38,251 nt of DNA from an uncultured Clostridia bacterium (lineage in GTDB: Bacteria; Bacillota; Clostridia; UBA1381), in contig CANQXJ010000017.1 of assembly GCA_947627795.1 (NCBI GenBank), positions 1 to 38,251 of the forward strand, in the 5' to 3' direction. This document shows positions 16,761 through 37,176 of this stretch, piece after piece; within the stretch, counting starts at the first letter, position 1, and each line of letters begins with the position of its first letter. Both the position numbers and the translations under genes were made by a program. Under the pieces are notes generated by a model, which ran no database searches, was not told the origin of the DNA, and saw nothing but the letters and a program-made list of their open reading frames with translations.

Positions 16761-16845
16761 ATTTTACCACAGCAAGCTATGCCTTTCAAGAGCAATTCAT
16801 GCCGCATATGTTATACTTCGTGCCATAACATTGTTTTTTCACGCT
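16761..16845 (-). promoter_or_regulatory. Promoter of the oxidoreductase-kinase unit with three 21-bp repeats
   Basis: Three elements on the minus strand, AGCGTGAAAAA (from 16845), GGCACGAAGTA (from 16824) and GGCATGAATTG (from 16803), are each 21 bp apart. TTGAAA (16789-16784) starts 14 bp after the start of the third, and TAAAAT (16766-16761) follows a 17-bp spacer. Since the kinase gene lies downstream, the two-component system may control its own sensor. Confidence 0.75.
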
Positions 16846-16865
16846 ATGATTGATACGAAACGCAC

Positions 16866-34476: not shown

Positions 34477-34947
34477 ATGAAAAGAATACTGGTTTTTTCG
34501 GATACACACGGTAATATTGACGGATGTATCGACATAATAAAAAGAACGCCCTCGGTGAGCGCGGTTCTCCACGCGGGAGACTGTGTGCGCGACGCTGAAG
34601 GGCTTGAGGCGGCGTTTCCGTCGCTTAAAATTTACTATGTGAAGGGCAACAATGATTTCTTTACGCGCGCTCCGGCTTCCATGCTTATTCCGATAGCGGG
34701 CAAGAGGATATATCTCACGCACGGACACGAGCAGCGGGTGAAGTACGAGTTTCACTATACAACGCTTGCGAACCGCGGCGAAGATGTGAACGCCGATTTG
34801 GTGGTATTCGGTCACACGCACGAGCCGTACACGGGATATGTCGGAAAAATGACGCTGTTAAATCCGGGCAGCGCGCTGTTCACGCGTACATATGCGGTTG
34901 TGGAAATCGAGGGGGATAAGCTCAAAACGGCAATTTTGGATATATGA
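34477..34947 (+). CDS. YfcE/MJ0936-type metallophosphoesterase
   Basis: The product has 156 residues, the usual length. All five calcineurin-like metal motifs are present: FSDTHGN (8-14), HAGDC, KGNNDF, LTHGHEQ and FGHTHEPY. The family hydrolyses small phosphodiesters; the cellular substrate is unknown, and this enzyme often lies with housekeeping genes. The start chosen is ATG at 34477 with GGAGG 5 nt upstream; the frame extends to 34426 but that part overlaps the promoter. Confidence 0.9.
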   Translation: MKRILVFSDTHGNIDGCIDIIKRTPSVSAVLHAGDCVRDAEGLEAAFPSLKIYYVKGNNDFFTRAPASMLIPIAGKRIYLTHGHEQRVKYEFHYTTLANRGEDVNADLVVFGHTHEPYTGYVGKMTLLNPGSALFTRTYAVVEIEGDKLKTAILDI

Positions 34948-35059
34948 CAAAGCGCGGACGCGCCGATTGCCGAGGTTTTTGAAATGTACTCGCCTACCCC
35001 CGTTCATCAGGCTTGCCGCCGCGGCTGTGTCTTTGCTTATCTTGTGTGTTTTTATTATC

Positions 35060-35185
35060 TTACTTATCTTCGTCCCCGTCCGCGACAAGCATCTGCTCTA
35101 CTTCCTTCTGCGCCGTCTGCAGCGTTTCTATTGCGTCTGAAACCGCGTCAAACAGTTTTAAGTACATTTCCTTGTAATTTTCCAT
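35060..35185 (-). CDS. Small 41-residue helical protein, unknown function
   Basis: A frame of 42 codons including the stop starts with ATG at 35185, preceded 8 nt upstream by a perfect GGAGG. The product opens MENYKEMYLKLFDAV and continues DAIETLQTAQKEVEQM, ending in an acidic tail; it is predicted to be one or two amphipathic helices with heptad-like hydrophobic spacing. It resembles short hypothetical proteins I have seen in clostridial genomes, but I cannot assign a family name. It lies downstream of the minus-strand structured RNA and its terminator, and would be expressed by read-through or from an unseen promoter. Confidence 0.65.
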   Translation of the reverse strand: MENYKEMYLKLFDAVSDAIETLQTAQKEVEQMLVADGDEDK

Positions 35186-35274
35186 TCATAACACCTCCTT
35201 TTCCCGTTAATAACAAAGAAAAGGCGCGTGCGGCTTATAAAGCCGTATACACCTTTCGAGTTTCATTGCTTCAT

Positions 35275-35309
35275 ATAAAAAGTGCGCGGCGTTTTTCAAA
35301 GCCGCGCAC
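35275..35309 (-). terminator. Terminator of the minus-strand structured RNA
   Basis: GTGCGCGGC and GCCGCGCAC form a 9-bp GC-rich stem with a 10-nt loop, followed on the minus strand by TTTTTAT. Confidence 0.85.
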
Positions 35310-35495
35310 AAAAAACGCAGCTTTGATTTCAAAATGTTGCTACGCATCTTTGTGTGTTATCCGTTTCTGACGTCCCTAAATCAGCAGGAACACAATCAAA
35401 GCGTGCGCTTTTTTAACAAGCGCAGTCCGCCTTTTTAGGGTATGCGTCCGGATAAGCACGTATACATACATATATTAAAAACAAAGATTCGTAGC
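35276..35495 (-). ncRNA. Structured RNA of unknown class, copy 1
   Basis: Predicted RNA of about 220 nt. Its 5' end (35495-35481) pairs with 35353-35339 in a 15-position helix with a single mismatch (GCTACG...CGTAGC outermost), and the helix begins at the expected transcription start. Inside, TTATCCG (35455-35449) pairs with CGGATAA (35363-35357), CCCTAAA (35440-35434) pairs with TTTAGGG (35380-35374), and TGCGC/GCGCA (35424-35404) forms a hairpin. The internal segment GCTTTGATT (35402-35394) pairs perfectly with AATCAAAGC (35328-35320) in the tail beyond the closing helix, giving a pseudoknot. A terminator follows. No reading frame fits. The plan and the tail sequence match the plus-strand RNA at 35624. 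A 6S-like or raiA-like RNA is possible; I cannot confirm either. Confidence 0.65.
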
Positions 35496-35501
35496 GTTTA
35501 T

Positions 35502-35530
35502 ACTATATCACAATAGTCAGGAAAAGTAAA
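35502..35530 (-). promoter_or_regulatory. Promoter of structured RNA copy 1
   Basis: On the minus strand TTTACT (35530-35525), a 17-bp spacer and TATAGT (35507-35502). The expected start, 7 bp downstream, is G at 35495, the first base of the closing helix. Confidence 0.6.
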
Positions 35531-35589
35531 GAAGAAAATGCGGGGAAAGGAGGTAAATTATGAGGTGAAATATATTTTTAAAAAACATA

Positions 35590-35617
35590 TTGCAAAATCC
35601 GGTTGATGTGGTATAAT
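35590..35617 (+). promoter_or_regulatory. Promoter of structured RNA copy 2
   Basis: TTGCAA (35590-35595), a 16-bp spacer and a perfect TATAAT (35612-35617) preceded by TGTGG (extended -10). The expected start, 7 bp downstream, is A at 35624, the first base of the closing helix. Confidence 0.7.
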
Positions 35618-35623
35618 ATACAT

Positions 35624-35833
35624 ACCACATGTTTTCTTTAATAGCGTATTTAGTGTATTCTTTCGGGGTATGCTGTTTTTGATGTATTTTGGATTAAAGT
35701 TTGCGTTTGTAAAAATGCAGGCTTTTAATAAGACGCTTTAATCTAAGTACGTCATTTGTTAAAGAAAATGTGTGGTAGCATTAATCCAAGCCGCGTTTTT
35801 ATGCGTGGTGCGGGTATGTGCCACGCATTTTTT
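35624..35833 (+). ncRNA. Structured RNA of unknown class, copy 2 (free RNA or leader of the DUF6273 gene)
   Basis: Predicted RNA of about 210 nt. 35624-35641 pairs with 35759-35776 over 18 bp (two G-U pairs), starting at the predicted transcription start. Inner hairpins are AGTGTATT/GGTATGCT (35652-35674) and TGCGTTT/AAATGCA (35702-35719); GATTAAAG (35692-35699) can pair with CTTTAATC (35736-35743). TTGGATTAA (35689-35697) instead pairs perfectly with TTAATCCAA (35781-35789) in the tail, a pseudoknot that excludes the previous helix. That mutual exclusion, with a terminator 12 nt downstream and a gene 53 nt beyond it, also fits a riboswitch-like attenuator. The tail aligns with that of copy 1 (GCNGCGTTTTT before the terminator in both). 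Confidence 0.65.
35801..35833 (+). terminator. Terminator of structured RNA copy 2
   Basis: ATGCGTGG and CCACGCAT form an 8-bp perfect stem with a 12-nt loop followed by TTTTTT. It lies 53 bp before the DUF6273 start codon. Confidence 0.8.
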
Positions 35834-35886
35834 GATGGGTGGGAAAAGTTACATTCATGTTATTTTAAATTACAGGAGGACTGATT

Positions 35887-37176
35887 ATGAAGAAACGTTT
35901 TTTTAGCTTAGCGGTTGCTGTGACAACGCTGACCGCATTAATGCCGATATTTACTGTACGGTCGGCAGCGAGTGTTAATATAGGTGATTATGTGCAGATG
36001 GGGACATATTATGGTGCGCCTATATTGTGGCGATGTGTGGATATTGATGAAAATGGTCCGCTTATGCTGTCAGATAAAATAATTTGTTTAAAACCTTTTG
36101 ATGCTATTACGAGTGAAAATAGTGAAACAGGATCTCACAGCAGGAACGAGGATAGACGATTACGAGGTTCCGAATACTGGGCGGACAGCAATATACGTTC
36201 ATGGCTTAATTCAAATGCAGATTCAGGAGAGATAGAATGGTTGTGCGGAAATCCTCCGGACGAAGATCATGTAAAGGGCGGATATAATGATTATGATCAA
36301 GAACCCGGATTCTTAACCAATTTTACGCAAAGCGAAGTTAATGCCATAAAAGAAGTAACGCAAAAATCCATTCTGTTGTATCCTGAAATAAATGTCGGTA
36401 TGGCAGTGACGGGAACCGAAAACCATATATATGATAATAATATACCGGACGCTGTGACGAACTATGATACGGCGTATGCGGAATATGTAACGGATAAGAT
36501 TTTTTTGATTGATGTAAAACAGCTAAATGCTATCTATGACAACAGAAATGTTTTAGGCGCGGAATATTATTATATAGGAGAACCTACAGAGCAATGTGCA
36601 GCAAACAGCGAATATAAAACAGATAGCTTAACAAGCGGACAAAAGTGGCCTTATTGGCTTCGTTCATCAAGCGTAAATGATTCTCATTGTTATGTCAGAT
36701 ATGTCATTCCGTCCGGATATGTATATAATAGCAGTGCTTATTATGGTGATATTGGAGTTCGTCCCGCTTTGTATTTAAACGAAAGTGCAATAACTATCTC
36801 TGGAAGTGGTACAAATGATAATCCTTATACTATTGATGATAGTGAGGAGAAACCTGCGATTACACCTATGCCGATTATCCCGCTTGAGGTTGAGAAAGTT
36901 CAGCCGGTAGTTAATTCGGAAACAAACACTGTTGCATTCCCCGTCACCGTGGTTGATTCGTCACGCGCGGAGGAGCTTAACGAGGTGGAGCTGTATGTTG
37001 CCGAATATGACGCGGACGGCAGGTTTACCGGCTTGACGCGAGGCGTGAAATCTGCGCTCGAGGGGGATACAATTACCATTACCGCCGGTATTCCCGAATC
37101 GGATAATTACAAATTCATGCTTTGGGACGGCAATAACATACCTCTTATGGACGCGGTTACAAATATTAAGGAGTAA
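35887..37176 (+). CDS. Secreted DUF6273-domain protein with a C-terminal beta domain
   Basis: The product has 429 residues with a signal peptide (about 1-28). Residues about 30-310 match the DUF6273 pattern of clostridial secreted proteins: GDYVQMGTYYGAPILWRC near the start, IRSWLNSN in the middle and YWLRSSSV with GVRPALYLN at the end. Residues about 330-429 form a small beta-sandwich-like domain ending KFMLWDGNNIPLMDA, of a type common at the end of secreted clostridial proteins. Function unknown. The DUF6273 part is clearly more AT-rich than the rest of the window, while the last about 250 bp return to local composition, suggesting an imported domain joined to a resident one (inference). 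AGGAGG precedes the ATG; it lies downstream of structured RNA copy 2. Confidence 0.83.
   Translation: MKKRFFSLAVAVTTLTALMPIFTVRSAASVNIGDYVQMGTYYGAPILWRCVDIDENGPLMLSDKIICLKPFDAITSENSETGSHSRNEDRRLRGSEYWADSNIRSWLNSNADSGEIEWLCGNPPDEDHVKGGYNDYDQEPGFLTNFTQSEVNAIKEVTQKSILLYPEINVGMAVTGTENHIYDNNIPDAVTNYDTAYAEYVTDKIFLIDVKQLNAIYDNRNVLGAEYYYIGEPTEQCAANSEYKTDSLTSGQKWPYWLRSSSVNDSHCYVRYVIPSGYVYNSSAYYGDIGVRPALYLNESAITISGSGTNDNPYTIDDSEEKPAITPMPIIPLEVEKVQPVVNSETNTVAFPVTVVDSSRAEELNEVELYVAEYDADGRFTGLTRGVKSALEGDTITITAGIPESDNYKFMLWDGNNIPLMDAVTNIKE

Follow-up and report, generated by a model that had tools for sequence, protein, structure and literature searches.

What are the two structured RNAs that diverge from one intergenic region of this clostridial genome, and what might they control? 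The window analysed here is a stretch of 38,251 nucleotides from an uncultured Clostridia bacterium, in which the region 34947-35887, reaching from a metallophosphoesterase ORF to a DUF6273 gene, holds two promoters set back to back and the ORF of a 41-aa microprotein. The original prediction had placed two divergent, paralogous RNAs at this site, each beginning with a long closing helix at the expected transcription start, and had offered 6S-like and raiA-like RNAs as candidate classes.

Two divergent RNAs at one locus

Both RNAs, and the position of the closing helix, were confirmed. Behind each promoter the long closing helix (P1) begins about 7 nt past the -10 box and is followed by a structured core and an intrinsic terminator, with a P1-to-P1 length of 157 nt in RNA1 and 155 nt in RNA2. 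The computed folds reached -78 kcal/mol for RNA1 (z -5.5) and -77 kcal/mol for RNA2 (z -8.3), values that were equalled by none of 200 dinucleotide shuffles in either case. The features of the locus are as follows.

35525-35530 (-): -35 box of the RNA1 promoter, TTTACT
35502-35507 (-): -10 box of the RNA1 promoter, TATAGT
about 35276-35495 (-): whole structured leader RNA1, P1 to terminator end (fold z -5.5)
35482-35495 (-): RNA1 P1 5' strand, GCUACGAAUCUUUG (from the fold)
35405-35423 (-): RNA1 P3 hairpin, GCGCUU..AAGCGC
35394-35402 (-): RNA1 segment J, GCUUUGAUU, the upstream partner of the tail
35339-35352 (-): RNA1 P1 3' strand, CAAAGAUGCGUAGC (from the fold)
35311-35328 (-): RNA1 tail or switch strand, AAUCAAAGCUGCGUUUUU
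35282-35309 (-): RNA1 intrinsic terminator, whose 5' arm and loop GGCUUUGA mimic segment J (folds, then TTTTT)
35060-35185 (-): 41-aa YxEMY microprotein ORF under RNA1, MENYKEMYLKLFDAVSDAIETLQ... (homologues in 14 of 70 genomes)
35590-35595 (+): -35 box of the RNA2 promoter, TTGCAA
35612-35617 (+): -10 box of the RNA2 promoter, TATAAT
about 35623-35833 (+): whole structured leader RNA2, P1 to terminator end (fold z -8.3)
35623-35641 (+): RNA2 P1 5' strand, UACCACAUGUUUUCUUUAA (from the fold)
35696-35725 (+): RNA2 P3 hairpin, AAAGUUUGCGUUU-GUAA-AAAUGCAGGCUUU (from the fold)
35711-35724 (+): RNA2 upstream partner of the tail, AAAAAUGCAGGCUU
35759-35777 (+): RNA2 P1 3' strand, UUAAAGAAAAUGUGUGGUA, also like the terminator 5' arm AUGCGUGG
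35778-35800 (+): RNA2 switch strand and tail, GCAUUAAUCCAAGCCGCGUUUUU
35801-35833 (+): RNA2 intrinsic terminator, AUGCGUGG..CCACGCAUUUUUU (terminator scan)
35887-37176 (+): gene under RNA2 for a secreted DUF6273 protein of 429 aa (Pfam PF19789, E 4.5e-16; signal-peptide-like start)

The RNA1 terminator hairpin was not among the calls of the terminator scan; it is present in the RNA1 fold with TTTTT behind it. RNA1 was also matched by the family covariance model (C17:35277-35360, E 7e-13), a match that exists by construction because the RNA1 sequence stood in the model seed. A homologue of RNA2 with 87% identity lies in the sister genome G001, where the divergent pair is retained (C8:16310-16388 (-) and 16771-16852 (+)); one of these RNAs is followed by a YxEMY ORF and the other by a signal-peptide protein. 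At about 35215-35255 (-) in the window, the RNA1 terminator and the ribosome site of the microprotein are separated by another long hairpin with Ts behind it, and an insert at this position is also present at two further loci (L235, L240).

The candidate classes share general features with the pair. 6S RNA (RF00013) has a similar length of about 200 nt, a long closing helix and its own promoter, while raiA RNA (RF03072) is likewise about 200 nt long, pseudoknotted and found in Clostridia. We nevertheless regard a divergent 6S or raiA RNA as extremely improbable, since neither the window nor the scanned family loci gave an above-threshold Rfam match. The window RNAs are unmatched by the 6S model, and true 6S RNA lies at a separate locus of the same genome (C51:11494-11686) and in 12 of the 13 genomes searched; to our knowledge, neither the tail pairing nor the terminator-loop mimic is part of the 6S plan. 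raiA RNA stands in front of raiA, a context that was not seen at the family loci, and the raiA model matched neither window RNA nor anything else in 13 genomes, in a search that lacked a positive control. Neither of the two proposed classes was upheld. The Rfam scans of the window RNAs and family loci gave no match to the T-box model (RF00230), and a search for tRNA and tmRNA genes found none.

The RNA family and its covariation

A search with Rfam covariance models and a covariance-model search of related genomes had both been proposed for these RNAs. Against Rfam 15, at gathering as well as relaxed thresholds, the window and the scanned family loci returned chance-level matches only, with no related family at either RNA. 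The search of related genomes recovered a large family. Relatives were found in 22 of 61 genomes by a DNA search with RNA2 (at most 8 matches in one), and a covariance model of the 3' module located the family in 44 of 70 genomes belonging to the same GTDB family as the window; a single genome held as many as 19 copies, and the window's own genome 7 to 9. When 84,980 species were scanned with a strict 3'-module pattern, 100 stretches were returned, which among those listed came from Clostridia, Monoglobus, Oscillospiraceae, Lachnospiraceae, Ruminococcus, Eubacteriales, unnamed Bacillota and bacterial genomes and one viral contig. With a model built from 18 compact members, matches were obtained in 51 of the 243 genomes sampled from the class (33 of 160 genera, about 16 families); copies per genome reached at least 13 in distant families, and several genomes had at least 12 matches. 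The two RNAs therefore belong to a large and apparently undescribed family, absent from Rfam 15. That they are members of a widespread, multi-copy family, most of whose members are leaders of downstream genes, had been missed in the original prediction. We did not find the motif described in the literature outside the supplementary lists of PMC8040213; it may stand as a bare listing among the thousands of unnamed human-microbiome candidates reported in that work (Fremin and Bhatt, 2021).

Two copies have neighbours of a mobile kind. One lies on an IMG/VR viral contig (L178 10500-10640; viral status taken from the database) before a small lipoprotein gene, and the leader may therefore travel with phages or prophages. 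At the other, an ORF like an IS200-type transposase begins directly past the terminator (L278 437-599).

The minimal plan of the family can be read from compact members (L124, L013, L178, L163). In the 5' half, the promoter is followed by P1, a conserved UAAUA, P2 and a hairpin P3 with a GUAAAAA-type loop; the 3' half consists of segment J (GCUUUGAUU in many members), CAUA, P2', P1', ARCA, a variable strand S, which in compact members ends in AGCYGCGUUUUU, and the terminator. RNA1 and RNA2 are long members that carry inserts. The alignment of their tails noted earlier reflects a truly conserved GCNGCGUUUUU tail. The ACGTCA motif, which had also been put forward as shared, is found in both window RNAs yet in only 6 of 109 family units, and is therefore coincidental.

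Paralogy on one shared plan with compensatory change, as originally suspected, was borne out by the helices. P1 varies widely in sequence (GCUACACA, ACCACACA, GCCAAACA, GCGAAACA, GCUAAAUU, GCGACGUA and others) and the partner strand co-varies, such that P1 pairs swap between G-C, A-U, C-G and U-A among relatives. In 30 clean diverged units, a subset in which the RNA1 strands were set by eye, 98.75% of P1 pairs were standard, compared with 80% when partners were shuffled. For the combined structure of P1, tail and terminator in an 18-member alignment, 97.5% of cells were paired, and 26 double-change cells were counted against 8.8 in shuffled data (0 of 500 shuffles). RNAalifold, run on 18 compact members with no structure supplied, returned the antiterminator pairing as its consensus; taken alone, the antiterminator structure gave a modest result in the pair-count test, 4 of 500 shuffles reaching its covariation score. 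P1 and the tail pairing are backed by compensatory changes.

Further elements were observed beyond the terminator of some members. In two GCCAAA-type variants (L198, L199), the post-terminator sequence UCGCCAAAC is complementary to the end of the P1 3' strand and the bases following it, as if it were a second competitor. At eight loci (L003, L004, L007, L011, L024, L025, L028, L029) an element GGAAAGGAG recurs past the terminator at a distance of 10-60 nt, ahead of the real start codon, and is followed directly by a small hairpin of changing sequence, for example GGCUUGCCGCAAGCC.

A tail strand with two partners

The original prediction had included a perfect 9-bp pairing between an internal segment and the 3' tail of each RNA. 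In RNA1 this pair is real, formed by GCUUUGAUU and AAUCAAAGC (35402-35394 with 35328-35320), and it extends to about 19 bp at -23 kcal/mol. In RNA2 a 9-bp pair exists (TTGGATTAA with TTAATCCAA, 35689-35697 with 35781-35789) but is not the homologous pairing, and we rejected it as the conserved one; the family-wide tail pairing in RNA2 joins AAAAAUGCAGGCUU and AAGCCGCGUUUUU (35711-35724 with 35788-35800).

Throughout the family, the tail (S together with GCGUUUUU) is complementary to the P3 3' strand and J over 13-19 bp with one bulged base. S is also complementary to the 5' arm and loop of the terminator, whose sequence repeats J, and the P1 3' strand is complementary to the terminator 3' arm. 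The three partners in RNA1 are J (GCUUUGAUU), S (AAUCAAAGC) and the terminator (GUGCGCGGCUUUGA...). Because the terminator loop mimics the internal segment, one tail strand can pair either upstream, which leaves the terminator free, or with the terminator, as an antiterminator. This second, putatively competing partner of the tail had escaped the original prediction, and given such a partner, the pseudoknot probably represents one of the states adopted by a termination switch.

We compared the pairing of each strand with its own and with foreign partners. For 46 diverged units, S paired with its own terminator loop at -9.5 kcal/mol versus -5.8 kcal/mol with foreign loops (0 of 20000 permutations; reversed control z -2.9), giving a z-score of -12.3 that, like the others in these comparisons, is inflated by the non-independence of related sequences and by the use of complementarity searches to place the helices. 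The tail paired with its own core at -16.9 versus -12.8 (z -11.0, 0 of 20000 permutations; reversed control z -1.7). Twelve representatives of other families, which are not a fully independent validation because R2, the model that found them, includes antiterminator pairs, gave -10.6 versus -5.9 for S with its own terminator (z -5.7, 0 of 20000) and -16.4 versus -12.4 for the tail with its own core (z -4.3). The full antiterminator, in which the P1 3' strand and S pair with the loop and 3' arm, reached -19.2 versus -14.5 (z -6.5; control z -0.5), and its P1 part by itself was weak (z -2.2).

The two states are not balanced in computed energy. The RNA1 tail gains -23 kcal/mol with the core versus -14 kcal/mol with the terminator, P1 3' strand included, and in almost every example the terminated state has the lower energy because P1 is long and stable. 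Readthrough would therefore need a signal or kinetic trapping.

Downstream genes and the proposed switch

The next gene is co-oriented in 64 of 72 loci, with a median distance of 51 nt from the terminator, as it is in 20 of 20 loci of three genomes (G070, G073, G075) and in 17 of the 18 assessable loci of other families. By a simple hydrophobicity rule, 43 of 64 next genes have signal-peptide-like starts, versus 22% of all ORFs in the loci. Domains encoded behind the leader are LRR_5, CHAP, SLH, Cu_amine_oxidN1, DUF6273, DUF5067 and PKD. The second target is an acidic microprotein of 40-46 aa (YxEMYxxLFNxxTDxIExLK...), present in several copies per genome and without a family in Pfam or NCBIfam. 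Its gene has the leader directly upstream in nearly all assessable loci (window 35060-35185 (-), L186, L192, L208, L212, L244 and others), with one clear exception (L236); at YxEMY loci missed by the first model, a divergent leader was identified by eye. At two loci from two bacterial families (L280, L282), a small Cys-rich protein, MLIDVTGI.LTPGN.GKDC.GNGE...ECCCDECDY, is encoded directly behind the RNA.

Could the RNAs instead be parts of a dispersed repeat or mobile cassette of promoter, structured RNA and terminator that has spread to sites ahead of genes which it does not regulate? The multi-copy state, the near-identical 3' tails within a genome (8 matches of up to 93% identity in G032) and the IS200-like ORF behind one copy would fit, but very divergent copies retain all helices through compensatory change, the bias in orientation and gene class is unexpected for random insertion, and an unsystematic look noted no flanking duplications. 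We judge this explanation very unlikely.

At some loci, two or three complete units of promoter, RNA and terminator, their helices diverged, stand in tandem, as follows.

L186 390-1090: tandem array
L192 430-1090: tandem array
L187 320-760: tandem array
L189 290-870: tandem array
L190 240-680: tandem array

Arrays stand before genes at L186, L192, L189 and L190, and at the first two of these all three units precede a YxEMY microprotein gene. At L187, L198 and L283, the gene behind the unit is convergent or no downstream gene is nearby. These arrays and copies may represent serial leaders, remnants or free RNAs, and they speak against a pure leader, which does not need them. Together with the strong terminators, they are what would be expected of free-standing, trans-acting sRNAs, each made from its own promoter-terminator unit, whose neighbouring genes are incidental or have promoters of their own. 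A free sRNA would, however, give its terminator loop no reason to complement S, yet the two are complementary copy by copy, and the next gene is nearly always close, co-oriented and of two main kinds. Free sRNAs, although the main rival, therefore seem an unlikely explanation, and we consider it probable, from the pairing and gene order, that the RNAs are cis-acting leaders controlling transcription termination of the gene behind them.

In the terminated state of such a leader, P1 and the core-tail helix would hold S, the terminator would form and the gene would be off. In the readthrough state, S, with or without the P1 3' strand, would pair with the terminator loop and arm, no terminator would form and the gene would be on. 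The U5 tail beside the GC-rich strand may be a pause site that times this choice, and a signal would shift the balance; most likely, this would be a ligand that binds to conserved unpaired positions of the core (UAAUA, GGUAAAAA, CAUA, ARCA). In this way, one signal acting on a multi-copy leader would jointly set the YxEMY microprotein and many genes for secreted proteins.

This arrangement resembles that of transcription-terminating riboswitches such as SAM-I, lysine and c-di-GMP-I, with which the family shares a 5' aptamer-like core enclosed by P1, a post-P1 strand common to core and terminator, and an intrinsic terminator before a co-oriented gene, in many copies controlling a regulon. A conserved structured core is present in the 5' leader, a co-oriented gene lies directly behind it (exceptions L187, L198 and L283), and the terminator and antiterminator are, as judged from their sequences, mutually exclusive. 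The family differs in that it matches none of the Rfam riboswitches by sequence or covariance, and in its members the switch strand invades the P3 3' strand over 13-19 bp and the terminator loop copies J. A ligand-binding riboswitch is the likely identity suggested by these features.

The signal could also be an RNA-binding protein or a trans RNA in place of a small ligand, a sub-case that overlaps with the cis-acting leader. All evidence for switching would fit equally, protein antiterminators, too, typically govern regulons of many unlinked genes for secreted proteins, and the YxEMY microprotein, with its gene behind the leader, could conceivably regulate its own expression. A conserved regulator gene, however, was not observed beside the copies, and a 99% complete genome with 8 copies (G009) had no YxEMY gene detectable with a short query of limited sensitivity. 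Since the RNA occurs in genomes with no detected YxEMY gene, this protein is not required, and we rejected it as an obligatory regulator. We consider a protein or trans-RNA signal somewhat unlikely.

As for the ligand, c-di-GMP riboswitches I and II (RF01051, RF01786) are multi-copy in Clostridia and often precede genes of secreted or surface proteins. The family shares both their multi-copy state and their secreted-gene context, and neither model was matched in the Rfam scans. Six genomes (G004, G022, G026, G029, G033, G079) carry 2-7 RNA copies and no GGDEF match, two of them being at least 95% complete. We rejected c-di-GMP as a required ligand on the basis of these six carriers, a test limited by the incomplete genomes; with several carriers lacking a detected GGDEF protein, c-di-GMP is unlikely to be the signal.

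We tentatively propose a new riboswitch class, present in many families of gut Clostridia, with copy numbers per genome that reach a dozen or more. One small molecule other than c-di-GMP, possibly an unrecognised signal, would act through a strand that can pair either with P3/J or with the J-mimicking terminator, and would set the secreted and surface proteome and conserved microproteins. On the basis of the alignments and the three-partner switch, ligands could be sought, termination assayed and the structure determined directly. If the proposal is true, the RNAs would be among the more abundant unassigned regulatory RNAs of gut Clostridia, and orphan microproteins (YxEMY and the small Cys-rich protein) would be tied to common control. 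The regulon would largely consist of secreted proteins that meet the host and other microbes, comprising BspA-type leucine-rich repeat, CHAP, SLH, copper-amine-oxidase-N and DUF6273 proteins and lipoproteins.
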